From assembly GCA_021324255.1 (NCBI GenBank), contig JAJPJL010000068.1, forward strand, positions 1 to 64,000: DNA of 64,000 nt, read 5' to 3'. Below the pieces are notes generated by a model. It had not been told where the DNA came from. It made no database searches and was given only the letters and a program-made list of their open reading frames with translations. Below, one piece after another: positions 7,785-25,151 of the stretch. This DNA is from Bacillota bacterium. GTDB taxonomy: Bacteria > Sysuimicrobiota > Sysuimicrobiia > Sysuimicrobiales > Segetimicrobiaceae. Within the stretch, counting starts at the first letter, position 1, and each line of letters starts with the position of its first letter. The position numbers were made by a program, and so were the translations under genes.

Positions 7785-9428
7785 GTGCGCCACAACGTGG
7801 TGCTCATCGGCTTCATGGGGACGGGCAAGACCGCCCTCGGCCGCGCGCTGGCGTCACGGCTCGGCCGCCCGTTCGTGGACACCGACGTCCTGATCGAGGA
7901 GCGCGCGGGGCGGCCGATCCCGCGGATCTTCGCCGAGGACGGCGAGGCGGCGTTTCGGCGCCTCGAAGCCGAGGTCGTGGCCGCGGTCGGCAATGCGCAG
8001 GGCAGCGTGATCGCCACCGGCGGCGGCGTGGTGCTCAACCCGGAAAACATGGCGCACCTGCGCCGCGGCGGCGTGATCGTGGCGCTGCGCGCGGCGCCCG
8101 CGGCGATCCTGGCCCGCGTCGGCCGCGGGACCGGGCGCCCGCTGTTGGGCGCCGATCCGGAGGAGAGCGTGCGGCGCCTCCTGGACGAGCGCGGCCCGTT
8201 GTACGACGACGCCGACCTGGTCGTGGACACCTCGACGCTGCAGCCCGAGGACGCGGTGCGGCTGGTGGAGATGTTCGCGGCGACGTGGAAGGGCCGGGAC
8301 GGTCGCGCGCCGGGCGCCGGCGGCGGCGCGGCCCACGTCGTGCGGGTGGCCGCGGCATCCCGCGGCTACGACGTGCGGATCGGCCGGGGCCTCATCGATC
8401 ACGCCGGCGGCTACCTGCGGGATCTCGGCCCGGCCGGACGCGCGGCGATCCTCACGCACCCCCGGCTCGACGCGCTGTACGGCGTTCGCCTCGCCGCATC
8501 GCTCCGGGCGGCGGGGTACGACCCCGTAACGATCACGGTCCCGGCGGCCGAAACGAGCAAGAGCCTGCGCGCCGCCGACCGCCTGTACGGCCGGTTGCTC
8601 GAGGCGCGGCTCGACCGCGGGTCCGTGCTCGTCGTGCTCGGCGGCGGCGTGGCGGGCGATCTCGGCGGGTTTGTGGCGGCCACGTTCCTGCGGGGCATCG
8701 CGTGGGCGGCGGTCCCCACCACGTTGCTCGCCCAGGTCGACGCGTCGATCGGCGGCAAGACCGCGGTCAATCACGCCCGCGGCAAAAACCTGATCGGCGC
8801 GGTGCACCAGCCAGTGGTCGTCATCGCGGACATCGACACACTGGCGTCGCTCCCGGCGCGCGAGGTGCGCTCGGGCCTGGCGGAGGTGGTCAAGACGGGC
8901 GTGATCGGCGCCCCCGGGCTGTTCGCGTACCTGGAGGACTGCCTCGGCGCCGTATTGCGGGGCGACGCGGAGGCGCGGACGGCCGTGGTCGCCCGCTGCG
9001 CGGCCTACAAGGCGGGGGTCGTCGCCGGAGACGAGCGGGAGGACGCGGGGCGGATCGTGCTCAACTACGGGCACACGATCGGGCACGGCATCGAGGCCGC
9101 CGCCGCCTACCGCGGTGTGACACACGGCGAGGCGGTGGCCGTCGGGATGACCTTGGAGGCCCGGCTGGCGGTGCGGCTCGGCGTGTGCGATGCCGGGCTG
9201 CTCGAGCGGCAGACGGCGCTGCTGCGCCTGGCCGGCCTGCCGGTCCGCGTCGCCGACCTGCGCCTCGCGCACCGGCCGGCGCCCGACGCGATCGCCGGGG
9301 CGATGGCGCTCGACAAGAAGGCGCGGGCGGGGCGGCTGCGGTTCGTGCTGCCGGCCGGCGTCGGGCGCACCACCGTGCGCGACGACGTCCCGCCGTCCCT
9401 CATCCGGGAGGTGCTCGACGATGGCTAA
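7785..9428 (+). CDS. aroKB: Bifunctional shikimate kinase / 3-dehydroquinate synthase
   Basis: A 547-residue fusion of two shikimate enzymes. Residues 1 to about 170 are shikimate kinase: Walker A GFMGTGKT (9-16), shikimate-binding DTD and [15 protein letters not shown], and lid RPLLG. After a Gly/Ala linker (about 171-185), the rest is 3-dehydroquinate synthase with NAD-binding [21 protein letters not shown], and zinc-site segments [19 protein letters not shown] and [10 protein letters not shown]. The fused enzyme therefore catalyses steps 2 and 5 of the pathway. It starts at GTG 7785 and overlaps aroQ by eight bases. AroK-AroB fusions are known in some bacteria, such as Thermotoga. Confidence 0.95.
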
Positions 9429-9864
9429 GGTCCTCGTGATTCACGGGCCCAACCTCAACCTGCTGGGCAGCCGCGAGCCGCATCTCTACGGCACCGTGAC
9501 GCTGGCCGAGGTGGATCGCCGTCTCCGGGCGCTCGCCGAGGAACTGGGCGTCGCCGTCGAGACGTTCCAGTCCAATCACGAAGGCGCGATCATCGACCGG
9601 CTCCACGCCGCCCGGGGCGCGTACGGCGCGGTCGTGCTCAACCCGGGCGGGCTCACGCACTACAGCATCGCGCTGCGCGACGCGATCGCCGCCATCGCCC
9701 TGCCCGTGGTGGAGGTACACGTCACCAACATCCACGCCCGCGAGGCGTTCCGCGGCGTCTCGGTCATCTCGCCGGTCGCGCGGGGCCAGATCGCCGGGTT
9801 CGGCCCGGACAGTTACCTGTTGGGCCTGCGCGCCGCGGTCGCCTTGAGCCAAGCCGCTCGGTAG
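9421..9864 (+). CDS. aroQ: Type II 3-dehydroquinate dehydratase
   Basis: Dehydrates 3-dehydroquinate to 3-dehydroshikimate. The 147-residue size and motifs fit the dodecameric type II enzyme: [17 protein letters not shown] near the N-terminus with the catalytic tyrosine, [29 protein letters not shown], and [14 protein letters not shown] with the catalytic histidine. The ATG at 9421 is inside the last codons of aroKB, indicating coupled translation. Confidence 0.95.
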
Positions 9865-9957
9865 CCGGCCGGCGTCGCGGAGGACGGCCCGGCGCGGCGG
9901 TCGAAGCACGGACGGGATCGCGGCTGGGCCGCGGCGCACGGGACGAGGAGGTCGGCG

Positions 9958-10329
9958 ATGCCGTTCCGCGGCATTCGAGGCGCGATCACGGTCGACGCCA
10001 ACACGGAGGACGCGATTCTCGGCGCCACGCTGGAGTTGCTCCGGGAGATGGTGCGCGAGAACGACGTGCGCAGCGACGACATCGCCAGCGTGATCTTCAC
10101 CATGACGCCCGACCTCGATGCCGTCTTTCCCGCGGCGGCGGGCCGGGACCTGCCGGGATGGACCCACGTGCCGCTCATGTGCATGCAGGAGATCCCGGTG
10201 CCGGGCGCGCTCCCGCGGTGCGTGCGGATCCTGATGCACATCAACACGCCGAAGGCGGCCATGGAGATCCGGCACGTGTACCTGGGCGGGGCAACGCGGC
10301 TGCGCCCCGACCTGGCCTCGCGGTCGTAA
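9958..10329 (+). CDS. aroH: Chorismate mutase, AroH (Bacillus) type
   Basis: Rearranges chorismate to prephenate, committing it to tyrosine and phenylalanine. The 123-residue protein has the monofunctional AroH fold markers: FRGIRGAITV at the N-terminus (substrate arginine), then LMCMQEIPVPGALPRCVRIL with the catalytic Glu and Arg. An AGGAGG-like site (GAGGAGG) stands just before ATG 9958. Its stop shares one base with the aroA start (TAATG). A dedicated prephenate dehydratase is not seen in this window. Confidence 0.92.
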   Translation: MPFRGIRGAITVDANTEDAILGATLELLREMVRENDVRSDDIASVIFTMTPDLDAVFPAAAGRDLPGWTHVPLMCMQEIPVPGALPRCVRILMHINTPKAAMEIRHVYLGGATRLRPDLASRS

Positions 10330-11615
10330 TGCCCGGCGCCGCGCTCGTGGTCGCGCCCGGGCGGCCGCTGCGTGGCAGCGTGCGGGTGCCCGGGGACAAG
10401 TCCATCTCGCACCGGGCGGCGTTGCTCGGCGGTCTCGCCGCCGGGGTGACCACGGTGGAGGGATTTCTCCGGGCCGAGGACTGTCTCGCCACGCTCGCCT
10501 GCGTGCGCGCGCTCGGCGTGCGGATCGACGACGGCGGCGACCGTCTTACCATCCACGGCGGGGCTCTCGCGGAGCCCGGCGACGTGCTCGACGTCGGCAA
10601 CTCCGGCACCACGATCCGGCTCTTGGCCGGCGTTCTCGCCGGCCAGCCGTTCCATAGCGTGGTCACGGGCGATGCGAGCGTCCGCCGCCGCCCCATGGAC
10701 CGCGTGGCGACGCCGCTGCGGCGCATGGGCGCGCGGGTCGCCGGCCGCGCCGGCGGGCGATTTGCGCCGCTCTCGATCGACGGCGGCGGTCTCCGCGGCA
10801 TCGTCTACGACACGCCCGTGGCCAGCGCGCAGGTCAAATCCGCGGTGCTGCTGGCCGGCCTGTTTGCGGAGGGCGAGACCGTGGTGCGTGAACCGGCGCT
10901 GAGCCGCGACCACACCGAGCGCATGCTGCGCGGGTTCGGGGTGGCCGTGCAGCGGAACGGGCTCGCGGTCGGACTCCGCGGTCCGGCGCCGCTGCGGGGC
11001 GCCGCCGTGCTGGTGCCCGGCGATCTCTCCTCCGCCGCGTTCTTCCTCGCGGCCGCGGCGTTCGTGCCGGGTTCGGAGCTGACGGTCACGGACGTCGGCC
11101 TCAACCCGACGCGGGCGGGCGTCCTCGACGTGCTCGCGCAGATGGGCGCGGACATTCGCGTGTGGGGCCGGCGGGATGCCGGAGGCGAGCCGGTGGGGTC
11201 GGTGACCGTGCGGGGCAGCCGGCTCCGCGGCACGGTCATCGGGGGGGAGCTGATTCCCCGCGCGATCGACGAGCTGCCCGTGCTCGCCGTCGCCGCGTGC
11301 CTGGCGGACGGCGAGACGGTGATTCGTGACGCCGCGGAGCTCCGCGTCAAAGAGTCGGACCGCATCGCCGCGCTCGCGCGCGAGCTCGGCCGGCTCGGCG
11401 CCGAGGTCGCGCCGCAGCCGGACGGGCTCGTGATCCGAGGTGGGAGACGGTTCCGCGGCGGGCGGCTCCAGAGCGGCGGCGATCACCGCATCGCGATGGC
11501 GCTGGCCGTGGCGGGGTTGTGCGCGGAGGCGCCGGTGACGATCGACGACACGGCGTGCATCCGGACGTCGTTCCCCGACTTCGAGGAAACGCTCAGGCGC
11601 GTGACGTCGGCGTGA
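10329..11615 (+). CDS. aroA: 3-phosphoshikimate 1-carboxyvinyltransferase (EPSP synthase)
   Basis: Transfers the enolpyruvyl group of PEP to shikimate-3-phosphate. The 428-residue protein shows VPGDKSISHRAALLGGL, LDVGNSGTTIRLLAG, GDASVRRRPM, SAQVKSAVLLAGL, the catalytic IDELPVLAVAAC and LRVKESDRIAALA, and DHRIAMALAVAG. Length and all motifs are normal. It begins inside the aroH stop and overlaps the next gene by four bases (GTGA). Confidence 0.96.
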   Translation: MPGAALVVAPGRPLRGSVRVPGDKSISHRAALLGGLAAGVTTVEGFLRAEDCLATLACVRALGVRIDDGGDRLTIHGGALAEPGDVLDVGNSGTTIRLLAGVLAGQPFHSVVTGDASVRRRPMDRVATPLRRMGARVAGRAGGRFAPLSIDGGGLRGIVYDTPVASAQVKSAVLLAGLFAEGETVVREPALSRDHTERMLRGFGVAVQRNGLAVGLRGPAPLRGAAVLVPGDLSSAAFFLAAAAFVPGSELTVTDVGLNPTRAGVLDVLAQMGADIRVWGRRDAGGEPVGSVTVRGSRLRGTVIGGELIPRAIDELPVLAVAACLADGETVIRDAAELRVKESDRIAALARELGRLGAEVAPQPDGLVIRGGRRFRGGRLQSGGDHRIAMALAVAGLCAEAPVTIDDTACIRTSFPDFEETLRRVTSA

Positions 11616-12361
11616 CGTACGATCCGCCGCGCCTCGCGGCCATCGCGCTCGTCGTCTGCGTGGCCGCGGGGATCAAAGGCGCCGTGGGCTTTGGCTTTCC
11701 GCTGATCGCGATCCCGGTGCTCTCGATCGTCCTCGGCCCGGCCGCGGCGATCCCGCTCGTGACCCTGCCCACGCTGGTGAGCAACCTGATCCTCGTGGGC
11801 CGGGGCCCGGGAACCCGGGCGGACATGCGGCCGTTCGTCTTCACCCTGGCGGCGCTGGTCGCCGGCGTGGTTGCCGGCGCGTTGTTGATCCACGCCATGC
11901 GGCCACGCACGTTTTCGGTGCTGGTGGGCGCGGTCTCCGCGCTGTACGTCGCCGCCAGCGCGCTCCGCCTCACGCAGGTGATTCCGCCCGGAGCGGGCCG
12001 CCGCGCCGGCCCGCTCATCGGCCTCGCGGCGGGCGTGCTCGGCGGCTCCACGGGGATCTTTTCGCCGCTGGTCGCGAGCTATCTGCACATGCTGCGGCTC
12101 GAAAAGCGCGCGTTCGTCTTTTGGATGACGATGATGTTTTTCGTCGGCAACATCGCGCAGTTCGCATCGTATCTCCGGCTCGGGCTGTACCGCGGGCCCG
12201 TGATGGCCACGGCCCTGCTCGCGTGCATTCCGATGGCGGTGGGGACGTGGGCGGGGCTCCGGTTGCAGGACGTGCTGCACCCGGAGACGTTCAGCCGCGT
12301 CGTGCTCGGCCTCGTGTTCCTCGCCTCGTTGGGTCTGCTCGCGCGCGGCCTCTTTGGCTGA
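11612..12361 (+). CDS. TauE/SafE-type sulfite exporter family permease
   Basis: A 249-residue membrane protein with about seven to eight hydrophobic helices. The glycine-rich GIKGAVGFGFPLIAIP near the N-terminus and the matching GLAAGVLGGSTGIFSPL in the second half are the twin repeat of the TauE/SafE (DUF81) family, which exports sulfite, sulfoacetate or other organic anions. Translation is coupled to aroA through GTGA, so it belongs to the aro operon. Its substrate is unknown; export of an aromatic-pathway acid is only a possibility. Confidence 0.78.
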   Translation: MTYDPPRLAAIALVVCVAAGIKGAVGFGFPLIAIPVLSIVLGPAAAIPLVTLPTLVSNLILVGRGPGTRADMRPFVFTLAALVAGVVAGALLIHAMRPRTFSVLVGAVSALYVAASALRLTQVIPPGAGRRAGPLIGLAAGVLGGSTGIFSPLVASYLHMLRLEKRAFVFWMTMMFFVGNIAQFASYLRLGLYRGPVMATALLACIPMAVGTWAGLRLQDVLHPETFSRVVLGLVFLASLGLLARGLFG

Positions 12362-12431
12362 CCCCGCGCGCACGGGTTGCGCCGGTGCATCGTTGTTGAC
12401 GGTCAACCCGCGCCGGCGTTCGGCCATGACG

Positions 12432-13535
12432 CTAGCGCAGCTTGCCGCGTCCCAACAGCGGCCAGACGATCTCGACGCGGCCGTCCCGCACGCCGTAGAG
12501 TTCGTCGTGTAGGCAGACCGTGGTGTCCGAGTACCCGACGACGAACTCGATTTTGTCTCCGACCCGTACCGAGGCGTCCGGCTCGCTGAGCTCGATCTTG
12601 CCGTGCTCGGCCGACAGCGCCACCGAGGTCACGTGCGACACGCCGACCGGCGCGGGGGGCGCGGCGTCGCTGCTCATCGTCTTCTTGCCGGCATCGCAGA
12701 TGATCCGGAGCGGTGTCGGCCGGCTCGTGACCGTCGCGAGCACCGTGAGCGCGTAGTCGTGGTCGACGTGCATGCGCGTGCGGTACAGGACGTCGCCGAA
12801 GATCCCGCCGCCGGCCTGGATCTCCGTGACGCCAGGCAGGCGCGCGGTGATCGTGTACGTGCCGGTGCCGCCGCAGCTCACGATGTCCACCGGCAGGTCC
12901 GCCCGCCGGCACCGGTCCGCGCTCTGGACGAGGAGGCCCACCGCGTCCGCGACCGCGCGGCGCTTCTCGGCGGGATCGGCGATGCGGATCGTGTGCGCCT
13001 CCCACCCCATGAGTCCGGCCAGCCGCAGGCCCTCGCACCCGTGGACGAGCCGGGCGAGGTGGACGACCGCGTCGCCGGGCTCCACGCCGGCGCGATGCAT
13101 GCCGATATTCACCTCGATCAGCACCCGCAGGCGCACGCCCTTGGCACGAGCGGCGGCGTCGATCGCGCGCACGTTGTCCTCGCCGTCGACCGCGACCATG
13201 ACGTCGGCGTGCGGCGCGAGGTTGACGAGCCGGCGGATCTTGTGGTCTCCGACCACCTGGTTCGCGATCAGGATGTCGCGGACGCCGCCCGCGGCCATGA
13301 CTTCCGCCTCGCCGAGCTTCGCGCACGTGACCCCGTGGGCGCCGGCGCGGAGCAGCATGTGCGCGAGCGCCGGCGTCTTGAGCGCCTTGGTGTGCGGCCG
13401 CCAGCCGACGCCGGCGTCACGCATGTACCGGGCCATGCGGTCGATGTTGCGCTCCATCGTGGGAAGATCCACGAGGAGCGCCGGGGTGTCGAGCTCCGTC
13501 TTCGGCCGTCCGATCGCCCACGTGTCGAGGGACAT
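12432..13535 (-). CDS. DSD1-family PLP enzyme (D-threonine aldolase / D-serine dehydratase-like)
   Basis: A 367-residue fold-type III PLP enzyme. The N-terminal alanine-racemase-like barrel has the PLP lysine in RPHTKALKTP; the C-terminal D-serine-dehydratase-like domain has HDELYGVRDG, where the family places a metal-binding histidine. Members cleave D-3-hydroxyamino acids or dehydrate D-serine; the substrate cannot be told from sequence alone. The start ATG at 13535 has AAAGGAG upstream. It is transcribed away from the T-box operon and converges on the TauE gene, with an imperfect hairpin (12373-12379 with 12404-12410) in the 70-bp gap. Confidence 0.82.
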   Translation of the reverse strand: MSLDTWAIGRPKTELDTPALLVDLPTMERNIDRMARYMRDAGVGWRPHTKALKTPALAHMLLRAGAHGVTCAKLGEAEVMAAGGVRDILIANQVVGDHKIRRLVNLAPHADVMVAVDGEDNVRAIDAAARAKGVRLRVLIEVNIGMHRAGVEPGDAVVHLARLVHGCEGLRLAGLMGWEAHTIRIADPAEKRRAVADAVGLLVQSADRCRRADLPVDIVSCGGTGTYTITARLPGVTEIQAGGGIFGDVLYRTRMHVDHDYALTVLATVTSRPTPLRIICDAGKKTMSSDAAPPAPVGVSHVTSVALSAEHGKIELSEPDASVRVGDKIEFVVGYSDTTVCLHDELYGVRDGRVEIVWPLLGRGKLR

Positions 13536-13649
13536 CGCATGCTCCTTTGACGCGGTCTATGCCGTACGGTGCCGGTCTTGTTTCCGCTCTCTATTCCCCC
13601 GGGATCATGGAAGTCCCGCCGCCCGGCCCGCGGGGCTCGACCGCGGGCC

Positions 13650-13676
13650 GGCTACGGGGGCTACGGGGGCTACGGG
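13650..13676. repeat. Three tandem 9-bp repeats
   Basis: Three exact copies of GGCTACGGG lie 12 bp upstream of the -35 region of the T-box operon promoter. Function unknown; it could be slippage or regulator binding. Confidence 0.6.
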
Positions 13677-13688
13677 GTGCGGCGGCAC

Positions 13689-13715
13689 TTGCGCGGCGGC
13701 GCGTTATGCTATAAT
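13689..13715 (+). promoter_or_regulatory. Promoter of the aroF-tyrA-trp operon
   Basis: A consensus TATAAT at 13710-13715 stands just ahead of the T-box leader. The best -35 candidate is TTGCGC at 13689-13694 (15-bp spacer), or overlapping hexamers giving 16-17 bp. Transcription would start near 13722 and read through the leader. Confidence 0.65.
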
Positions 13716-13729
13716 CCGAGCAACTAATC

Positions 13730-14020
13730 CCGATGACCGGGGATAGTACGACGGGGAACGGCCCCAAGAGACCCGCGTGAAGCGGTGGAAGCGCGGGGGG
13801 CGGCCTCGGACGGAATGGACCCGTGAGGGGCGGACCGAAAGGCGGCGGGATGCCGCCGTGTAGTCGCCGCCGGCTGCCTCCACCGTAACCCGGAGGGGGG
13901 ATCGAGTCGCTGTTGCGGGCTCCGTCCCTGGCGAGCGGCCCCGGGCGACCGGGGAACTGGGGTGGTACCGCGGGCAGGCAGAGCCTCCCGTCCCGAAAGG
14001 GCGGGAGGTTTCGTGTTTGG
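13730..14020 (+). promoter_or_regulatory. T-box riboswitch leader, tRNA-Trp specific
   Basis: This about 290-nt leader has the T-box landmarks in order. They are the AGTA element (13745-13748), AGAGA (13767-13771), the apical GGTGGAAG (13784-13791), the specifier region GGAATGGACC with codon TGG at 13816-13818, and the conserved T-box GGTGGTACCGCGGG (13961-13974) that pairs with the tRNA acceptor end. A terminator hairpin competes with the antiterminator. UGG is the only Trp codon, so uncharged tRNA-Trp should bind and let transcription continue into aroF-tyrA-trpEGDCSFBA. The assignment rests on motif order and spacing; the fold was not computed. Confidence 0.9.
13984..14012 (+). terminator. 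T-box regulated intrinsic terminator
   Basis: The CCTCCCG arm and CCC with a GAAA loop pair with GGG and CGGGAGG (13984-14008, one bulged T), followed by a short T-rich run. It sits directly after the T-box sequence and is the default off state of the leader. Confidence 0.85.
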
Positions 14021-14041
14021 GCCCGGTGGGGAGGAGGCGCG

Positions 14042-15064
14042 ATGATCGTGGTGATGAGCCCGGCTCATACGCGGGAAATGCGCGATGCCGTCACGCGCAA
14101 GATCGAGGATGCGGGCCTGCGATGCCAGGTCAACGAGGGCGTGGAACGCACCGTGATCGGCGTCGTGGGGGACAGCCATACCAAGGAGGTGCTCCGCGAC
14201 AGCCTGGAGGCCATGGCGGGCGTCGAGAGCGTCGTCCGGATTTTGCAGCCGTACAAGCTGGTCGCCCGGGAGTTTCACGGCGGCAAGGACACGACGGTCT
14301 GGGTCGGCGACGTCCCCATCGGGGGCGGCAGCGTGGTCGTGATCGCGGGTCCGTGCTCGGTCGAGACGCGCGAGCAGGTGTTGCAGACCGCGGAGGCGGT
14401 CAAGCTGGCGGGCGCCAAGCTCCTGCGCGGCGGCGCGTTCAAGCCGCGCACGTCGCCGTACTCGTTCCAGGGGCTCGAGGAGGAGGCGCTCAAGATCCTC
14501 GCCGAGGCCCGGGAGGCGACGGGGCTGGGGGTGGTCACGGAGGCGATGGACGTCCGGCAGATGGACATGGTCACGAAGTACGCGGACATGGTCCAGATCG
14601 GCGCCCGCAACATGCAGAACTATCCGCTACTGCGGGAGGCCGGACGGACCCGGCATCCCGTGATGCTCAAACGCGGGCCGAGCGCGACGATTGAGGAGCT
14701 GCTCCTCGCGGCGGAGTACATCATCGCCGAGGGCAACCCCGACGTGGTGCTGTGCGAGCGCGGCATCCGCACGTTCGAAAACTACACGCGCTACACCCTC
14801 GACCTCAACGCGGTGCCGGTGCTCAAGTCGCTGACGCACCTCCCGGTCCTCGTCGACCCGTGTCACGGGACCGGCAAGTGGAAGCTCGTGACGCCGATGG
14901 CGCGGGCCGCGGTCGCGGCCGGCGCGGACGGGCTGCTCGTCGAGGTGCATCCGGAGCCCGACAAGGCGTTGAGCGACGGGCCGCAGCAGCTGACGCCCCA
15001 GAACTTCGCCGTCATGATGCAGGAATTGGACGCGATCGCGCTGGCCGTCGGGCGGCGGGTGTGA
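14042..15064 (+). CDS. aroF: 3-deoxy-7-phosphoheptulonate synthase (DAHP synthase)
   Basis: Condenses PEP with erythrose-4-phosphate, the entry step of aromatic biosynthesis. The 340-residue protein has an N-terminal ferredoxin-like (ACT-like) regulatory domain (about 1-70) and the KDO8P-type DAHP synthase barrel. Visible motifs are [46 protein letters not shown] and [10 protein letters not shown]. This is the Thermotoga/Bacillus-type class Ib enzyme, usually feedback-inhibited through the N-terminal domain. GGGGAGGAGG precedes ATG 14042. It is the first gene after the tRNA-Trp T-box, so carbon entry to the pathway is tied to Trp status. Confidence 0.95.
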
Positions 15065-15071
15065 GGGACCG

Positions 15072-15926
15072 GTGACCCCGTTCGCGCGCGTCGCGATCGT
15101 CGGGGTCGGCCTGATCGGCGGCTCGCTCGGGATGGCCGTGCGCCGCCGCGGGCTGGCGCGCGAGGTCGTCGGCGTGACGCGGACGGCCGGCGCGATGGAG
15201 GCGGCGCGCGTGCGCGGCGCGATCGACCGCGGGACGCTCGCCCTGGAGGACGCCGTGGCGGGCGCGGACCTCGTCGTGCTGGCCACGCCGCCGGATGCGG
15301 TCGTGCCCGCGGCCCGGCGGGCGCTGCCGCACCTCCGCCCGGACGCGATCCTGACGGACGTCACGAGCGTCAAAGGGGACATCGTCGGCGCCATCGAGGC
15401 GATGGCCGTACGTCCCGGCGCCGTGTTCGTGGGGGGACACCCGATGGCGGGCAACGAGGGGAGCGGCGTCGCGTCCGCGGACGCCGAGCTGTTCGAGGGC
15501 GCGGTGTACGTGCTCACGCCCACGGAGCGCGCCGGCGCGGCGGCCGTCGCCCGGCTGGCGGACCTGGCGCGCGCCATCGGGGCGCGCCCCGTCGTGCTGG
15601 CCCCCGACGCCCATGATCGCGCGGTGGCGATCGTGAGCCACCTGCCGTACCTGATCGCCGCGGCCCTGGTGCGCGTCGCTGACGGCGCCGCCGGCACGGC
15701 GGGGCCGGCCTTTCTCGGCGCCACGCGGGTCGCAGCGAGCCCGGTGGAACTGTGGACGCAGATCTGCCGGCTCAATCGCGCGCCGATCGCGGAGGCGCTC
15801 GCCGCGTTTCGTTCGGAGCTGGCGCAGCTCGAGGCCGCGCTCGACGACCGGGACCGTACGGGTGCCCTCCTCGAGCGGGCCCGCGCCGCGCGGGTCCGTC
15901 TCGGGGCGGCGCGCGGGGAGGCGTAG
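15072..15926 (+). CDS. tyrA: Prephenate/arogenate dehydrogenase
   Basis: Oxidatively decarboxylates prephenate (or arogenate) toward tyrosine. The 284-residue protein begins with the NAD(P) Rossmann loop VAIVGVGLIGGSLG and contains LTDVTSVKGD, GGHPMAGNEGSG and SHLPYLIAAAL, the conserved TyrA segments. It lacks a fused chorismate mutase, which is supplied by aroH in the neighbouring operon, and has no obvious C-terminal ACT domain. It starts at GTG 15072, seven bases after aroF. Placing it under a Trp-sensing leader couples Tyr supply to Trp starvation. Confidence 0.92.
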   Translation: MTPFARVAIVGVGLIGGSLGMAVRRRGLAREVVGVTRTAGAMEAARVRGAIDRGTLALEDAVAGADLVVLATPPDAVVPAARRALPHLRPDAILTDVTSVKGDIVGAIEAMAVRPGAVFVGGHPMAGNEGSGVASADAELFEGAVYVLTPTERAGAAAVARLADLARAIGARPVVLAPDAHDRAVAIVSHLPYLIAAALVRVADGAAGTAGPAFLGATRVAASPVELWTQICRLNRAPIAEALAAFRSELAQLEAALDDRDRTGALLERARAARVRLGAARGEA

Positions 15927-15933
15927 GGAGGCG

Positions 15934-17415
15934 ATGGTGCAGGACACCTTGATCGCTCCGGGGCCGGCGGAGTTCGACCGGCGGGCCCGCGAGGGCAACC
16001 TCGTCCCCGTGACGTGCGAGGTCCCGGCGGATCTCGACACGCCGATCTCCGCGTTCATGCGGCTGCGTCACCTGCCCCACGCGTTCTTGCTGGAGAGCGC
16101 GGAGGGCGGCGACAAGCTCGCCCGCTACTCGTTTCTGGGCGCGGCCCCCGCGCTGACGCTGCGGGCGACGCTGTCCGGCGTCGAGATCACGGAGCGCGGC
16201 GTCGTGCGTCGGCTGGCGCAGGATCCGCTGGAGGCGGCGCGCGACATCATGCGCCGGTACCGGCCGGCCGAGCAGGCGGGCCTGCCTCGATTCTACGGCG
16301 GGCTGGTGGGATATTTTTCCTACGATCTCATCCGCACGATCGAGCGCCTCCCGCACCGCCCCCCCGACGACCGCAACTTCCCGATCCTGGAGCTCGCGCT
16401 GGCCGACACGGTGGTCGTGTTCGATCACCGCGCGCACCGGCTGCGCGTGATCGCGAACGCCTACGTCGAGGACGGCGCGGAGCGCGCGTACCGCGCCGCG
16501 CAGGAACGCATCCGGGAGTGGATCGATCTGCTCCGCCGGCCGCTGCCGGCGCCCCCGCCGGCGGCCAAGGTCACGCGGCTCGCCCTGCGCTCGAACATGA
16601 CGCGCGAGCGGTACCTCGAAGGCGTCCAGCGGTGCCGCGAGTACATTCACGCCGGGGATGCGTTCCAGATCGTGTTTTCGCAGCGGTTCGCGGCCGACAT
16701 CGGCGACCTGGACCCGCTCACGATCTACCGGGCGCTGCGCATGATCAACCCGTCGCCGTTCATGTTCTATCTCGCGGCGCGCGACGCCGTGCTGGTCGGC
16801 GCGTCGCCGGAGCTCCTCGTCCGCGTGGAGGGGGAGAGCGTCGAGATGCGCCCCATCGCCGGCACGCGCCGGCGCGGCCTCACGGAGGACGAAGACCGCG
16901 CCCTCGCGGACGAGATGCTGGCGGACGAGAAGGAGCGGGCGGAGCACGTCATGCTGGTCGACCTGACCCGCAACGACGTGGGGCGCGTCTCCCGGTTCGG
17001 CACCGTGCGGGTCCCGGAGCTCATGACCGTGGAGCGGTACTCCCACGTGATGCACATCGTCAGCCTCGTCCAGGGGCAGCTGGCCCCCGGGCGGGATGTC
17101 TTCGATGTCCTCCGCGCGGTGTTTCCGCACGGCACCGTGAGCGGCGCCCCCAAGGTGCGCGCGATGGAGATTTTGGACGAGCTCGAGCCGACCGCCCGCG
17201 GCCCGTACGCGGGGGCGGTCGGGTACGCGGGCTTCGGGGGCGCGCTCGACACCTGCATCGCGATCCGCACGCTGGCGATCCAGAACGGCGTGGCGTACGC
17301 GCAGGCGGGCGGCGGGATCGTCGCCGATTCCGTCCCGGAGCACGAGTACGATGAGACGATCAACAAGGCGAAGGTGTTGGTCCGGGCCATCGAGGCGGCG
17401 GCCCGCGGGCTGTAG
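15934..17415 (+). CDS. trpE: Anthranilate synthase component I
   Basis: With TrpG converts chorismate and glutamine to anthranilate. The 493-residue protein has the Trp feedback-site motif LLES at residues 52-55. The catalytic domain shows [41 protein letters not shown] and [13 protein letters not shown] 15934 follows a GGGAGGC ribosome site and fits the family N-terminus. The gene is a stand-alone component I, not fused to trpG, which follows after 35 bp. Confidence 0.96.
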
Positions 17416-17450
17416 GGTGCGCGCCGGGCCCGGCGGAGCGGAGGCGTGAT

Positions 17451-18128
17451 GTGATTCTCGTCATCGACAACTACGACTCGTTCACGTACAACCTCGTGCA
17501 GTACCTCGGCGAGCTGGGCGAGACGCCGTGCGTCGTCCGAAACGACGCGGTGACCGTCCCGGAGATCGTCGCCAGGGCGCCCGAGGCCATCGTGATCTCG
17601 CCCGGGCCGTGCACGCCCGCGGAGGCCGGCGTCAGCGCGCCGGCCGTCGCCGCCCTCGCCGGGCGGATCCCGATCCTCGGGGTGTGCCTCGGGCATCAGT
17701 GCATCGGCGCGGCGTGCGGCGCCGCCGTGGTGCGAGGCCGGGCGCCGGTCCACGGCAAGACGGCGCGCATCTTCCACGACGGGCGGACGATCTTCGAGGG
17801 CCTGCCGAGCCCGTTCGTCGGCACGCGCTACCACTCGCTCGTCGTCGACGGCGCGACCCTGCCGGCGTCGTTCGAGGTGTCGGCGCGGACCGAGGACGGC
17901 GTGATCATGGGGCTGCGGCATCGCTCGGCCCTCCTGGAGGGTGTCCAGTTGCATCCCGAGTCCGTGCTCACCGAGCACGGGCACGCGCTGCTCGCGAATT
18001 TTCTCGCGCTCGCCCGCGGCACCGGGCCGCGCCGCGCCGCGGCGGCCGAGCCGGATCACCCCGCCGCCGCCGGCGGCGGCGCGTCGACGTCCGGCAGCGC
18101 CGACTACCACGTGGCGAGGGGGCGATAG
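17451..18128 (+). CDS. trpG: Anthranilate synthase component II (glutamine amidotransferase)
   Basis: Supplies ammonia from glutamine to TrpE. The class I amidotransferase triad is visible: Cys79 in GVCLGHQ, and His168 and Glu170 in [20 protein letters not shown] at the N-terminus is typical. The GTG at 17451 is the start. The 225 residues exceed the usual 190; the extra 30 or so C-terminal residues are Ala/Gly-rich and probably disordered. Such proteins can also serve 4-amino-4-deoxychorismate synthase; no pabB is seen here. Confidence 0.94.
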
Positions 18129-18132
18129 GCCG

Positions 18133-19149
18133 ATGCCGCTCCGCGCCGCGATCGCCAAGGTGGCGGCTCACGAGCGCCTGACGGAAGCCGAGGCGCACCA
18201 CGCGATGAGCGTGATCATGGACGGGGAGGCGACGGCGGCGCAGATCGCCTCGTTCATCACCGCGCTCGCGATGCGCGGGGAAACGGTCGAGGAGATCACG
18301 GGCTTTGCGCGGGCGATCCGCGAGCACGCCGTCCCGATCACGCCGCACGTGGACCACCTCGTCGACGTCGTCGGCACGGGCGGCGACCGCCTCAACACGT
18401 TCAACATCTCCACCACCACCGCGTTTGTGATCGCCGGCGCCGGCGCCCGCGTCGCGAAGCACGGCAACCGCGCGGCCAGCAGCCGCAGCGGCAGCGCGGA
18501 CGTCCTCGAGGCGCTGGGCATCAACATCGGAGCGCCGCCCGACGTCGTGCGGGCCTGCGTCGAGGAGCTCGGCGTGGGCTACTTGTTCGCGCCGCAGTTC
18601 CACCCGGCGTTCCGGCACGCCGTGGTGCCGCGGCGGGAAATCGGGATCCGCACGGTGTTCAACATCCTCGGCCCGCTGACCAATCCGGCCCGGGCGCGGC
18701 GGTACCTCTTGGGCGTGCCCGGCCCGGGGTATACGGAGGTGATGGCCCGCGTGCTCGCCGGCCTCGGCGGCGAGCGGGCGTTCGTCGTTCACGGCGAGGA
18801 CGGCATGGACGAAGTCTCGCTCACCGCGCCGACCCGGGTCTCGGAGATGGAGGGCGGGGAGGTGCGGACGTACGTGATCTCCCCGGAACAGTTTGGGCTG
18901 CGGCGCGCGCCGCTCGACGCGCTCCGCGGGGGTACGGCCGCGGAGAACGCCGCGATCGCCGTCGAGATCCTGCAGGGCCGTCCCGGCCCGCGGCGCGACA
19001 TCGTCGTGCTGAACGCGGGGGTCGCACTCGTCGCCGCGGGGCTTGCGGGCACGGTCGGTGACGGCATCGCGCTCGCGGCCCGGAGCATCGACTCGGGGGC
19101 TGCGTACGCCAAGCTCGAGGGCCTGCGGCTCCGGACGAAGTTCGCGTGA
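18133..19149 (+). CDS. trpD: Anthranilate phosphoribosyltransferase
   Basis: Transfers phosphoribose from PRPP to anthranilate. The 338-residue protein shows the PRPP loop VGTGGDRLNTFNISTTTAF, KHGNRAASSRSGSADVLEALG, RTVFNILGPLTNPA and VHGEDGMDEVSLTAPT, all family hallmarks. It starts four bases after the trpG stop. Confidence 0.95.
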   Translation: MPLRAAIAKVAAHERLTEAEAHHAMSVIMDGEATAAQIASFITALAMRGETVEEITGFARAIREHAVPITPHVDHLVDVVGTGGDRLNTFNISTTTAFVIAGAGARVAKHGNRAASSRSGSADVLEALGINIGAPPDVVRACVEELGVGYLFAPQFHPAFRHAVVPRREIGIRTVFNILGPLTNPARARRYLLGVPGPGYTEVMARVLAGLGGERAFVVHGEDGMDEVSLTAPTRVSEMEGGEVRTYVISPEQFGLRRAPLDALRGGTAAENAAIAVEILQGRPGPRRDIVVLNAGVALVAAGLAGTVGDGIALAARSIDSGAAYAKLEGLRLRTKFA

Positions 19150-19228
19150 GACACGAGGGTGTCGCGCGCCGGCCCGCGCCCGGGCGGCCGCGGCGCGTGG
19201 GTGCGGCGGCTCCGCGGAGGTGAGCCCG

Positions 19229-20020
19229 GTGGGGGTGTTGGGCGCGATCGTCGCGCACAAACGAGAGGAGCTCGCGGCGCGCCGCCGGCGCGTTCCGCTG
19301 GGGGATGTCCGCGGGCGCGCCGCGGATGCGCCGCCGGCGCGCGGGTTCGCGGCCGCGATCCAGGGTCCGCCGGTGCGTCTCATCGCCGAGGTCAAAGGAG
19401 CGTCCCCGTCGGCCGGCGTGATCCGCGAGACGTTCGATCCGGTCGCGGTGGCGCGTACGTACGCGGAGCACGGCGCGGCGGCCGTGTCCGTGCTCACGGA
19501 TGCGCGGTTCTTTCGCGGCGCCGACGAGCATCTTGCGGCCGTGCGGCGCGCGGTGCCGGTGCCGGTGCTGCGCAAGGACTTCACGCTGGATCCGTACCAG
19601 GTGTATGAGGCGCGGGCGCTCGCGGCGGACGCGGTGCTCCTGATCGCGGCCATCCTCGACGCCGCTGCGCTCCGCGACCTCCAGGGGCTTGCCGCGGAAC
19701 TCGGGATGGCCGCGCTGGTGGAGGTGCACACCCGGGACGAACTGGAGCGGGCGCTTGCCGCGCGACCGGCCCTGGTCGGCATCAACAACCGCAACCTGGA
19801 CACGCTGGAGACGACGCTGGAGACGACGCGCCGGCTGCGGCCGCTCGTGCCCCCCGGGCCGCGCGTCGTGGCCGAAAGCGGCATCGAGACGCGCGCCCAC
19901 GTCGAGGAGTTGGAGCGCCTGGGGATCGATGCCGTGCTCGTCGGCACGGCGCTGATGCGGTCCGCGGATCCGGCCGCGTGCGTCCGCGAGCTCCTCGGAT
20001 GCTCGCGCGCGGGCGCGTGA
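19229..20020 (+). CDS. trpC: Indole-3-glycerol-phosphate synthase
   Basis: Cyclises CdRP to indole-glycerol phosphate. The 263-residue TIM barrel has [40 protein letters not shown], the catalytic Glu in [14 protein letters not shown] and AESGI. GTG 19229 was chosen because GGAGG lies about eight bases upstream; GTG 19220 and 19235 are in-frame alternatives. A 79-bp gap separates it from trpD, the longest spacing in the operon. Confidence 0.94.
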
Positions 20021-20046
20021 ACGATCGGTCACACACAGGAGGCAGC

Positions 20047-21114
20047 ATGACGGAGACACGGATCCAGAGGACATCGATCCGGCCGGCGGCGCCGGGCACG
20101 CGGGGGCGGCTGCTGACCGGCGACCGGCCGACGGGGAAGCTGCACCTGGGGCACTACGTGGGATCCCTGGAGAACCGCGTGCGGCTGCAGGAGGAGTACG
20201 AGTGCTTCTTCCTGGTGGCCGATTACCATGTGCTCACGACCGGGGCGGAGCGCACCCGCGAGATCGGCCACAACATCCGCGACCTGGTGCTCGACTACCT
20301 GAGCATCGGGATCGACCCGGAGCGAAGCACGATCTACGTGCAGTCCCTGGTGCCGGAGGTGGCGGTCCTCTACCTGATCCTCTCGATGCTCACCACGGTC
20401 CCGCGCCTCCAGCGCGTGCCGACGCTGAAGGAGGTCATGCGGGATCTCCGGCTGGAGACCGCCACCCTCGGCCTGCTCTCGTACCCGGTCCTCCAGGCGG
20501 CCGACATCCTCATGGTGCGCGCCGACGTCGTGCCGGTAGGCAAGGACCAGTCGAGCCATCTCGAGGTCACACGCGAGCTCGCGCGGCGGTTCAACGAGCT
20601 GTACGGGCCCGTGTTCCCGGAGCCGGAAACCATCACCGGACGGGTCGGCACGCTCGTCGGGACCGACGGCCAGGCCAAGATGAGCAAGTCGCTCGACAAC
20701 GCGATCTACCTCTCCGACGACGCCGCGACGGTCGAGAAGAAGGTGAGCCGGATGTTCACCGACCCGACGCGGATCCATCCGACCGATCCCGGTCACGTCG
20801 AGGGCAACCCGGTCTTCATCTACCACGACGCCTTCAACCACGATACCGCCGAGGTCGACGAGCTCAAGGCGCGGTACCGCAAGGGTACCGTGGGCGATGT
20901 CGAGGTCAAGAAGCGCCTCGCGCGGGCCCTCAACGAGTTTCTCGCGCCGATCCGCGAGCGCCGCGCCGCGTGGGCCGCGACGCCCGGGCGGCTCGAGGAG
21001 ATTCTCGTCGAGGGGAGCCGCGTCGCGCGCCGCGAAGCCCAGCAGACGGTGGCGCTCTGCCTCCAGCGCATGGGGATGGATTACTTCGAGGCCGCGCGCG
21101 CCCGGGGAGGCTGA
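20047..21114 (+). CDS. trpS: Tryptophanyl-tRNA synthetase
   Basis: Charges tRNA-Trp. The 355-residue class I synthetase has the HIGH variant HLGH at 33-36 ([14 protein letters not shown]), the Trp-binding region PVLQAADIL, and KMSKS at 211-215. AGGAGGC precedes ATG 20047. It lies inside the trp biosynthetic operon, between trpC and trpF, so the same tRNA-Trp T-box should control both Trp synthesis and its charging. The trpF start overlaps its stop by one base. Confidence 0.96.
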
Positions 21115-21740
21115 TGGTCCGCGTCAAGATCTGCGGGATCCGGCGGTTGGAGGACGCGCTGGCCGCGGTGGACGCGGGGGCCGACGCGATCGGCCTGAAC
21201 TTCTGGCGCCCGGGACGGCGCTACGTCGCTCCGGAGATCGCCCGGGCGATCGCCCGCGCCGTCCCGCCGTTTGTGGCCAAGGTTGGCGTGTTCGCCAACG
21301 AGGAGCCCGATGTCGTCCGCAGGATCGCGGACGTGTGCGCGCTGGACGCCCTGCAGTTTCACGGCGAGGAGACCCCGGAGTTCTGCGGCGGCTTCCACCG
21401 CCCGGTGATCAAGGCGATCAAGATCCGGGACGCCGGCAGCCTCCGGCAGCTCGAGCGCTATCACGTGGCCGCGTATTTGCTCGACGCCCACGTCCCGGGC
21501 GCGATGGGCGGAACGGGGCGGACGTTCGACTGGACGCTCGCGCGGGCTGCGCAGGCGTGCGGGCCCGTCATCCTATCGGGCGGGCTCACGCCGGAAAATG
21601 TGGCGGCGGCGATCGAGGCGGCGCGGCCGTACGCGGTGGACGTGGCGTCGGGCGTGGAAACGCGCGGGGAGAAGGATCCCAGGAAGATCCGCGCGTTTAT
21701 CGCGCAGGTGACGCGGTGCAACGAGGAGGTGCGACCGTGA
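21114..21740 (+). CDS. trpF: Phosphoribosylanthranilate isomerase
   Basis: Isomerises PRA to CdRP. The 208-residue barrel has the catalytic Cys in [12 protein letters not shown], the family [18 protein letters not shown], the catalytic Asp in [14 protein letters not shown], and [14 protein letters not shown]. Coupled to trpS (TGATG) and to trpB (GTGA). Confidence 0.95.
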
Positions 21741-22957
21741 GAACGGTGTCGCGCAAGGCGCGCGCCGAACTGCCGGGACGGTTCGGCGTCTACGGAGGCC
21801 GGTACGTGCCCGAGACGCTGATCCCGGCGCTGGAGGAGCTGGAGACCGCGTTCCACGAGGCGCGCCGCGATCCCGCGTTCACGGCGGAGCTCCAGCGACG
21901 TCTCCGCACATTCTGCGGCCGGCCGACGCCGCTGTACCTGGCCGGCCGTCTCACGGAGGCGCTCGGGGGCGCCCGCATCTACCTGAAGCGCGAGGATCTC
22001 CTGCACACCGGCGCGCACAAGATCAACAACACCGTCGGCCAGGTGTTGCTCGCGGTGCGCATGGGCAAGCGGCGCATCATTGCCGAGACCGGCGCCGGCC
22101 AGCATGGGGTCGCCACCGCCGCCGCGGCGGCGGCGTGTGGCCTCCCCTGCGAGGTCTACATGGGCGTCGACGACATGGAGCGGCAGGCCCTCAATGTCTT
22201 CCGCATGCGACTCCTCGGCGCGCGGGTCATCGGGGTCGAGGGGGGGAGCCGGACGCTCAAGGACGCCATCAACGAGGCCCTGCGCGATTGGGTCACCAAC
22301 GTCCGGGACACGTTCTACGTGTTCGGCACCGTGGCCGGGCCGCATCCGTATCCCGAGATCGTACGGGCCTTTCAGGCGATCATCGGCGAGGAGGCGCGCC
22401 GCCAGATCGTGGACGTCGAGGGCCGGCTGCCGGACTGCTGCGTCGCGTGCGTCGGCGGCGGCAGCAACGCCCTGGGCCTGTTTTATGCCTTCCGAGACGA
22501 TCCCGCGGTCGCGCTCGTCGGCGTGGAAGCGGCCGGCCGGGGCTTGGCCACCGGCGAACATGCCGCGTCGCTCACGGCCGGCAGCCCCGGGGTCCTGCAC
22601 GGCGCCTACAGCTACGTGCTGCAGGACGCGGCCGGGCAGGTCCTGCCCACCCATTCAATTTCGGCCGGGTTGGACTATCCGGGCGTCGGCCCGGAGCACG
22701 CGTACATGAAGGATACCGGCCGCGCCCGCTACGTCGCGGTCACGGACGAGGAGGCGCTCGACGCGCTCCACCTGCTGTGCCGGACCGAGGGCATCCTGCC
22801 CGCGCTGGAGTCGGCGCATGCGCTCGCGCATCTCAACACGCTCGCCCCGGCGCTCGGACGGGACAAGCTCGTCGTGGTCGGCCTGAGCGGGCGCGGCGAC
22901 AAGGACGTGCACACGGTCGCCAAGGCCGCGGGTGAAGATCTCGGAGACCGGCGGTGA
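21737..22957 (+). CDS. trpB: Tryptophan synthase beta subunit
   Basis: Condenses indole with serine using PLP. The 406-residue TrpB1-type protein has [11 protein letters not shown], the PLP lysine Lys95 in [23 protein letters not shown], and the phosphate loop [11 protein letters not shown] 21737 overlaps the trpF stop and its own stop overlaps trpA, so F, B and A are tightly coupled, consistent with an alpha2-beta2 complex. Confidence 0.97.
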
Positions 22958-23829
22958 GCCGGCCCCGCGCGGCCGCCGGGACCCGCCGGTCCGCGGCGCG
23001 GCCGGCCGCCGCTCGGGCGTCCGCGGCAGCCCTTCGGGACAACCGGCTCGTCCGCGCCCTCGCCGCGGCCCGGATGGGCGGCCGGCGGGTGTTGGTGCCG
23101 TACATCATGGCCGGGGACCTGGACGCCGCGGCGACGGAGCGGCTGGTGGAGTTGCTGGTCGCCGCGGGCGCGGACGCGATCGAGCTTGGGGTGCCGTTCA
23201 GCGATCCGATCGCCGACGGCCCGGTGAATCAGCGCGCCGGCTTCCGGGCGCTCGCCCGCGGGATGACGCTCGGGAGAGCACTCGCGCTCGTGGCGCGCAT
23301 CCGGGAGCACACGGGCGTGCCGCTCGTGTTCATGACCTACTACAACCTGTTGCTCCGCCACGGCCTCGCCGCGTTTTGCCGCGACGCCGTGGCGGCGGGA
23401 CTCGACGGCGTGATCACGGCCGACCTGCCGCCCGAGGAGGGCGATGCCCTCGTCGCGGAGGGCCGGGCGGCGGGGCTGGCCACGATCTTTCTCCTGGCGC
23501 CGACCAGCACCGATGCGCGGATCCGCTCCGTCGCCGGCGCCTCCAGCGGTTTCATTTACTGCGTGTCGCGCACCGGCGTGACGGGCGTGCGCGACGAGGT
23601 GCCGCCGGAGCTGGCGGAGCTGGTCGGGCGGATCCGCGCCGCCACCGAGACCCCGGTGTGCGTGGGCTTCGGCATCAGCCGGCCCAGCCAGGCCCGGGAG
23701 GTGGCGCGCTACGCCGACGGCGTGATCGTGGGGAGCGCGCTCGTCGGAATGCTCGAGGAAGACCCGGAGGATCTGGGCCGCGTCGGCGCGTTTGTGCGCG
23801 ACCTCAAGGCCGCGGTGAGCGGCCGGTAG
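22954..23829 (+). CDS. trpA: Tryptophan synthase alpha subunit
   Basis: Cleaves indole-glycerol phosphate to indole. The barrel has [10 protein letters not shown]-like [14 protein letters not shown] with the catalytic Glu, [12 protein letters not shown], the catalytic Asp in [11 protein letters not shown], and [13 protein letters not shown]. The 291 residues include an Ala/Arg-rich leader of about 30 residues before the conserved domain, so the true start may be downstream, although GTG 22954 overlaps trpB (GTGA) and fits the operon pattern. It is the last gene under the T-box. Confidence 0.94.
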
Positions 23830-23843
23830 CCGCGCCGCCGCGG

Positions 23844-23861
23844 CCGCGGGGGCGCCCGCGG
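23844..23861 (+). terminator. Possible terminator hairpin after trpA
   Basis: A perfect 7-bp GC stem (23844-23850 with 23855-23861, four-base loop) lies 15 bp after the trpA stop and just before the next promoter. There is no T-tract, so termination is uncertain. Confidence 0.35.
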
Positions 23862-23865
23862 AGCG

Positions 23866-23894
23866 TTGACACCGGCTCCTGCCGGCCATACGGT
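23866..23894 (+). promoter_or_regulatory. Probable promoter of the citrate synthase gene
   Basis: A perfect TTGACA at 23866-23871 with a weaker TACGGT at 23889-23894, spacer 17 bp. An inverted CCGGC/GCCGG lies in the spacer and could bind a regulator. Confidence 0.55.
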
Positions 23895-23990
23895 AGAGGT
23901 GCGGGGCATAACAGAGAGTGAAGGGGCACGCGCTCGCGCATCATGGACGGGCCGGCCAAACGCTCCGCCCGTCGTCCGGAGGTCGATCCT

Positions 23991-25148
23991 ATGCAGCCCA
24001 CGCCAGGTCAGTCCGCAGGCGGTCCCAGCGCGGTCGCGGAGGGGCTCGAGGGGATCGTTGCGGCCTCCAGCCGCATCTGCTTCGTCGACGGCGTGGAGGG
24101 GCGGCTGATCTACCAAGGGTATGACATCCACGACCTGGTTGCGCACGCGTCGTTCGAGGAGGTGGCGTACCTGCTGTGGCACGGCGACCTGCCGAGCCGC
24201 GCCGAGCTCGACGCGTTGAACCGCGACCTCCGCGCGGCGCGGGCGCTCCCGGTCCCGGTTGTCGAGCTCATCACCGCCGCGCCGCCGGACGCGCTGCCCA
24301 TGGACGTGCTGCGCACGGCGGTGTCGGCCCTCGGCGTGTACGATCCCGAGGCGAAGGACGACACGCGCCCGGCCAACGTGCGCAAGTCGATCCGGCTCAC
24401 GGCGCAGATTGCGACCATCGTGGCCGCGTTCGACCGGCTCCGCCACCGGCAGCCGCTCGTTGCGCCGGACCCCGCGCTCGGCCACGCGGCCAACTTTCTC
24501 TACATGCTGCGGGGCGAGCGGCCCACCGAGACCGCGGCGAAGACCGTCGACACCGCGCTCATCCTCCACGCGGACCACGAGCTGAACGCCAGCACGTTCG
24601 CCGCCCGCGTCACGGCCGCGACGCTGGCTGACATGCACTCCGCGATCACGTCGGGCATCGGGACCCTCAAGGGCCCGCTGCACGGCGGCGCCAACGAGGC
24701 CGTGATGCGCCTCTTGCTCCGGATCGGCGACGTCCAGAACGCCGTGCCCACCGTCAAACGGCTGCTCGCCGACAAGAAAAAGATCGCGGGCTTCGGCCAC
24801 CGGGTCTACAAGACGGAAGATCCGCGCGCGACGCATCTACGGAAGATGTCCGAGGAGCTCTGCCGGCAGACGAACCAGCTCAAGTGGTTCCAGATGTCGC
24901 GCGAGATCGAGCAGTTCATGCTGGCGGAAAAGCACCTGCATTGCAACGTCGACTTCTACTCGGCCAGTTGTTACTACGCGCTGGGGATCCCGCTCGACCT
25001 GTTCACCCCGGTGTTCGCCGTGAGCCGCATCTCCGGGTGGACGGCGCACGTGCTCGAGCAGTTCGCCGACAACCGCCTCATCCGCCCCCGCGCGGAATAC
25101 GTCGGTCCGCGCAACCGCACGTACGTGCCGATTGGGGCGCGGAGCTAA
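23991..25148 (+). CDS. gltA: Citrate synthase
   Basis: Condenses oxaloacetate and acetyl-CoA, the entry reaction of the TCA cycle. The 385-residue protein is of the short, Gram-positive/archaeal type. Catalytic segments are LHADHELNAS, GPLHGGANEAVM with a catalytic His, GFGHRVYKTEDPRA, and VDFYSA with the catalytic Asp. ATG 23991 was preferred to ATG 23943 because GGAGG lies upstream at proper spacing. A 2-methylcitrate synthase role cannot be excluded. It has its own promoter and converges on the SDR gene with a three-base gap. Confidence 0.92.
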   Translation: MQPTPGQSAGGPSAVAEGLEGIVAASSRICFVDGVEGRLIYQGYDIHDLVAHASFEEVAYLLWHGDLPSRAELDALNRDLRAARALPVPVVELITAAPPDALPMDVLRTAVSALGVYDPEAKDDTRPANVRKSIRLTAQIATIVAAFDRLRHRQPLVAPDPALGHAANFLYMLRGERPTETAAKTVDTALILHADHELNASTFAARVTAATLADMHSAITSGIGTLKGPLHGGANEAVMRLLLRIGDVQNAVPTVKRLLADKKKIAGFGHRVYKTEDPRATHLRKMSEELCRQTNQLKWFQMSREIEQFMLAEKHLHCNVDFYSASCYYALGIPLDLFTPVFAVSRISGWTAHVLEQFADNRLIRPRAEYVGPRNRTYVPIGARS

Positions 25149-25151
25149 CGC

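Follow-up and report, generated by a model that had tools for sequence, protein, structure and literature searches.

The DNA analysed here, a stretch of 64,000 nucleotides that we call the window, very probably carries a class I (transcription-attenuation) T-box leader for tRNA-Trp(CCA), which would control aroF-tyrA-trpEGDC-trpS-trpFBA as one transcript. The T-box is canonical, the aromatic operon behind it is unusually broad and conserved in the phylum, and both the genes it contains and the way it has been rewired in nature deserve to be reported. The architecture of the RNA, its specificity by anticodon match, the cognate tRNA, the content of the operon and its conservation can all be read from the sequences compared. 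An earlier note had proposed a Trp-specific T-box before the operon, and this is upheld by the score of the covariance model (CM), covariation in stem I, the presence of tRNA-Trp(CCA), and a phylum-wide T-box and gene order.

The nearest named relatives of the window are MAGs titled 'Bacillota bacterium' and 'Terrabacteria group bacterium ANGP1', the latter being Candidatus Segetimicrobium genomatis of the phylum Candidatus Sysuimicrobiota. The host belongs to Candidatus Sysuimicrobiota, a phylum with little published regulation, and is not a typical Firmicute. The operon content described in the earlier note stands, but its comparison with Firmicute trp operons is for this reason not quite apt. 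Relatives were drawn from 43 genomes of the phylum, with families named f1 to f7.

Detection and architecture of the leader

The leader comprises the following elements upstream of its antiterminator and terminator.

13724–13998, + strand: T-box leader, full RF00230 model (cmscan, 37.4 bits, E 8.6e-7, model positions 1–219 of 219)
13729–13832, + strand: stem I with AGTA, AGAGA and GGTGGAAG motifs (CM alignment; RNAalifold, 17 leaders)
13816–13818, + strand: specifier codon TGG (Trp) in the specifier loop (unpaired columns 97–99 of alignment A1; invariant in 17 leaders)
13833–13900, + strand: stem II and IIA/B region, limits approximate (CM alignment; motifs)
13939–13954, + strand: stem III hairpin, CCCCGG/CCGGGG (CM alignment, sequence)

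The covariance check against Rfam RF00230 that the earlier note had put forward gave a significant score over the full model (E 1.3e-6 when searched against the whole genome), though one below the curated gathering cut-off of 93 bits; cmscan does not report the leader at the gathering threshold, and it was found with an E-value threshold instead. Nearly all T-box leaders of the phylum score below 93 bits, and the low score of this one seems to stem from the base composition of a high-GC phylum. The stem I motifs AGTA (13745–13748), AGAGA (13767–13771) and GGTGGAAG (13784–13791), the specifier TGG, the T-box GGTGGTACCGCGGG (13961–13974) and the terminator are all located where the earlier note had placed them, and the strict T-box pattern GGTGGNACCGCG has a single match in all 64 kb of the window, which is on the strand of the leader.

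Stem I of 17 leaders was aligned (alignment A1) and a consensus fold obtained with RNAalifold. The fold contains 19 pairs, 12 of which show compensatory changes, and TGG falls in an open internal loop between the covarying helices 15–18/101–104 and 26–32/86–93 of the alignment. The proposal that this codon occupies the specifier loop is thus borne out by covariation. Minimum free energy (MFE) folding of the single sequence does not show the T-box fold, and was dropped as a test because it is uninformative for a lone leader. That failed fold, together with a score under the Rfam cut-off, could be taken to mean that the leader is a degenerate, non-functional relic of a T-box, but the compensatory changes in stem I, a specifier that does not vary among the aligned relatives and the preserved overlap of terminator and antiterminator make this exceedingly improbable; a true relic resembles that of G011, in which most of the leader is deleted.

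The window genome (G000; L001–L008) contains seven further T-box matches, which by eye precede aspS, proC, ilvB, ileS, valS and others. Elsewhere in the phylum, three Trp T-boxes (L034, L038 and L045, from G003, G004 and G005) have only 52–76 bases between specifier and T-box and appear to lack stem II and IIA/B, like glyQS; an unusual D arm was noted in the tRNA-Trp of G003 and G005.

Specifier codon and cognate tRNA

A cognate tRNA-Trp(CCA) is encoded in the genome of the window and ends 3′ in GCCA. The T-box bulge, UGGU at 13963–13966, complements this end, with a G.U wobble as the last pair. As an exception, Trp T-boxes commonly have a bulge U opposite discriminator G (46% in TBDB; PMC7778990), and UGGU against GCCA is allowed for Trp. 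Covariation with the discriminator was sought within the Trp leaders and none was found, tRNA-Trp always having G and the leaders U or C. The marks of a Trp-specific T-box are present in the form of a UGG specifier and of trpEGDCFBA and trpS downstream.

Terminator, antiterminator and the predicted switch

Two alternative structures occupy the 3′ end of the leader.

13960–13994, + strand: antiterminator, with bulge UGGU at 13963–13966 (CM alignment; tRNA-Trp end GCCA)
13984–14008, + strand: intrinsic terminator hairpin CCTCCCGTCCCGAAAGGGCGGGAGG (−19.7 kcal/mol folded alone; terminator scan)

The terminator is a 10-bp GC hairpin with a U-rich tail, TTTCGTGTTT at 14009–14018 (6 U in 10), directly after it, and a hairpin with such a tail is seen again in the leaders of relatives. 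The 3′ arm of the antiterminator (13987–13994) lies inside the 5′ arm of the terminator (13984–13994); because these bases are shared, the two structures are mutually exclusive.

We infer a switch in which tRNA binding controls termination, with physiological effect. The UGG specifier would pair with the CCA anticodon of tRNA-Trp, and the GCCA end of an uncharged tRNA would pair with the UGGU bulge and stabilize the antiterminator, allowing RNA polymerase to read through into the ten genes. With charged tRNA-Trp, the terminator would form. Low charging of tRNA-Trp would in this way raise a single transcript encoding DAHP synthase, prephenate dehydrogenase, all of the Trp enzymes and TrpRS, which are the sole copies detected.

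Action on translation initiation, with the Shine–Dalgarno sequence of aroF (GGAGGAGG, 14030–14037) sequestered as in actinobacterial class II T-boxes, is improbable. This Shine–Dalgarno lies outside the terminator hairpin, and while the terminator 5′ arm contains CCUCCC, which to judge by its bases could pair with GGAGG of the Shine–Dalgarno, the stable hairpin, the U-rich tail directly after it and the recurrence of this pattern in relatives argue against such a role, even in a high-GC genome and with a U tract that is weak. Stem I also has the full length typical of class I (TBDB), and it carries AG bulge and loop motifs in its distal part; the shortened stem I and the Shine–Dalgarno sequestrator that characterize class II are both absent from the leader.

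The ten-gene operon and the reach of its control

Ten genes follow the leader, as the earlier note had claimed, and their identities were assigned mainly by NCBIfam.

14042–15064, + strand: aroF, DAHP synthase type I with ferredoxin-like regulatory domain (NCBIfam PRK08673, TIGR01361; Pfam PF18152 + PF00793)
15072–15926, + strand: tyrA, prephenate dehydrogenase (PF02153 + PF20463)
15934–17415, + strand: trpE (TIGR00564)
17451–18128, + strand: trpG (TIGR00566)
18133–19149, + strand: trpD (TIGR01245)
19220–20020, + strand: trpC (NF001377)
20047–21114, + strand: trpS, tryptophanyl-tRNA synthetase, Deinococcus TrpRS II / Thermotoga-like (TIGR00233; PDB relatives)
21114–21740, + strand: trpF (NF002298)
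21740–22957, + strand: trpB, start approximate (TIGR00263)
22954–23829, + strand: trpA, probable last gene of the operon (TIGR00262)

No gap between these genes exceeds 70 bases, and those between aroF and tyrA and between tyrA and trpE are of 7 bases each. The operon probably ends at trpA, since the next gene, gltA, lies 113 bases on behind a promoter-like sequence (TTGACA-17-TACGGT). A crude scan of 11500–25600 found no sigma-70-like site. Just upstream of the operon, at 7785–11615, lies a shikimate cluster comprising an aroK-aroB fusion, an aroQ-like ORF, a type I chorismate mutase and aroA, and no T-box was detected before it.

In the genome of the window, a 95% complete assembly, only one type I DAHP synthase was found at the threshold used. 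No type II DAHP synthase was found in this genome or in any of the 43 genomes of the phylum, and the enzyme was rejected as a bypass route. TyrA gave one strong match only, with no second copy in an assembly that, at this completeness, could miss a gene, and the trpS of the operon is likewise the sole copy found there; pheA is located on another contig. Since the search of the 95% complete assembly turned up a single copy each of DAHP synthase, TyrA and TrpRS, how much entry enzyme is available for making the three aromatic amino acids is probably governed by tRNA-Trp charging. We infer, in agreement with the earlier note, that Trp starvation would increase both entry into the pathway and the capacity of the Tyr branch, a view strengthened by the single DAHP synthase, TyrA and TrpRS of the assembly.

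Conservation across the phylum and switching from Trp to Phe

A T-box before aroF is found phylum-wide among the 43 genomes, and across the whole phylum the tRNA of one amino acid appears to set the amount of entry enzyme for three. The order T-box-aroF-tyrA is kept in families f1, f2, f4, f6 and f7 and in part of f5, and the full order T-box-aroF-tyrA-trpEGDC-trpS-trpFBA recurs in f1, f2, f4 and f5; the operon lacks trpS in f7, and a second T-box stands ahead of trpE in f6. Gene loss is also seen. G008 has lost the trp genes beside the T-box and retains the T-box, aroF, tyrA and trpS, while G011 has lost both its trp genes and most of the leader, and trpE was not found in the genome; what is left upstream of aroF at this locus (L137) is a promoter with a short linker and a remnant that resembles a terminator.

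The aroF leader could be read in 32 genomes, and by our own reading its specifier is TGG (Trp) in 29 and TTC (Phe) in three, namely G002, G035 and G036. The Phe specifier always occurs where aroF is separated from trpE. In G002, aroF-tyrA is preceded by a TTC leader and trpE onward by a second T-box with TGG; in G035, aroF alone is under TTC, and tyrA-trpEGD onward is under a TGG T-box; in G036, aroF is under TTC and neither a trp operon nor trpS was found. The TTC leaders carry UGGU, which is Watson–Crick to the A discriminator of the tRNA-Phe read in G002 and G035, and in the TGG leader of G002 the bulge is UGGC, fitting discriminator G. Because G002 falls within f2 and G035 and G036 within f5 in the aroF tree, at least two independent switches to Phe have occurred. 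The swap from Trp to Phe has thus been repeated in nature when aroF leaves the trp genes, with a fitting discriminator-pairing base in the T-box, and comparing the Phe and Trp leaders offers a clean way to test how the specificity of a T-box co-evolves with the content of its regulon. This natural rewiring supports both the reading of the specifier and aroF as a true target. A Phe T-box on pheA was considered in f5 and rejected, as the T-boxes near pheA seem to lie before a proC-like gene and to have a Pro-like specifier region.

These data bear on whether aroF and tyrA are mere bystanders of a leader that mainly controls the trp genes, with internal promoters setting their expression or that of trp. 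The gaps of 35 bases before trpG and 70 bases before trpC could hold promoters, and aroF and trpE are separated in G035 and G002. We nevertheless consider this very unlikely: aroF directly follows the leader, only 7 bases separate each of aroF, tyrA and trpE, the scan for sigma-70-like sites was negative, gene order is kept in several families, and aroF, on leaving, gains a T-box of its own specificity. The preferred reading remains control of all ten genes by the leader.

A promoter motif at aroF

The least explained part of the locus is a promoter motif that occurs only at aroF.

13707–13715, + strand: extended −10 promoter element TGCTATAAT (sequence; same element before the leader in most relatives)

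In the 43 whole genomes, TTGACN{5,6}TGNTATART has 16 matches, every one at aroF. These short-spaced sites (7–8 bp; for example, G017:C1:326469-326487) correspond to 15 T-box leaders and one aroF copy without a T-box, whereas the two boxes spaced as is usual (16 to 18 bp) give 72 matches scattered in the genomes. The window has a degenerate version at about 13690–13715, in which the extended −10 is retained and the TTGAC box has decayed, and the Phe T-box aroF promoters of G002, G035 and G036 have near-standard spacing instead. The copy without a T-box is a second aroF in G033 (G033:C100:10350-11397; L148, L184) with the same promoter; its mRNA may be leaderless, as the ATG is only 8 bases behind the −10.

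The short-spaced motif could serve an aromatic regulator, either as its operator or as a promoter of an unusual kind. That TTGAC with a short-spaced extended −10 constitutes a second, DNA-level control of the operon common to the phylum, besides the T-box, is a tentative idea that we regard as possible rather than probable. If true, the motif and the switching of specifier from Trp to Phe would together place the shikimate entry step under a control that has two layers, can be rewired and extends through the phylum.

The AroF regulatory domain and TrpRS type

The aroF product of the window shares a ferredoxin-like domain with the Thermotoga enzyme (PF18152; PDB 1rzm, 3pg9). In DAHP synthase of this type, His29 and Ser31 contact Tyr. 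The residues aligned to these positions are His/Ser in families f2, f4, f5 and f6, and the second aroF of G033 also keeps them; none of the operon aroF copies of f1 has both, the window having Gln/Asn (14042–14290). In the Thermotoga enzyme, paired ferredoxin-like domains bind Tyr (PMC5493349). Tyr feedback may possibly have been lost in the f1 DAHP synthase.

In several f4 and f5 genomes (e.g. L139, L141) the trpS slot holds a distant TrpRS of 36–40% identity. This is closest to the Geobacillus and Thermus enzymes, and the TrpRS of the window to the Deinococcus TrpRS II and Thermotoga type. The slot of trpS in the operon is kept while the type of enzyme changes.

Comparison with known systems

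The leader shares with class I T-boxes of RF00230 (the B. subtilis tyrS/trpS type) the stem I specifier loop, AGTA, AG bulge and distal loop motifs, together with stem II/IIA-B, stem III, the T-box bulge and the terminator; it differs in being very GC-rich, in scoring 37 bits and in its host, Candidatus Sysuimicrobiota. Trp T-boxes likewise precede tryptophan biosynthesis genes in Firmicutes and Dehalococcoides (trpE; PMC2494555), but the operon of the window starts with aroF-tyrA and includes trpS. In Thermacetogenium (L015), a T-box over aroF-pheA similarly extends control to DAHP synthase, although its specifier is apparently TTC (Phe) and the leader is tandem, whereas the tyrosine-operon T-boxes of the B. 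cereus group (PMC2494555) act on synthesis of Tyr, not Trp. No description of a T-box, aroF and trp in one operon was found in the literature searched. The class of RNA and its mechanism are already known; it is the composition of the regulon and its natural rewiring that are of interest.
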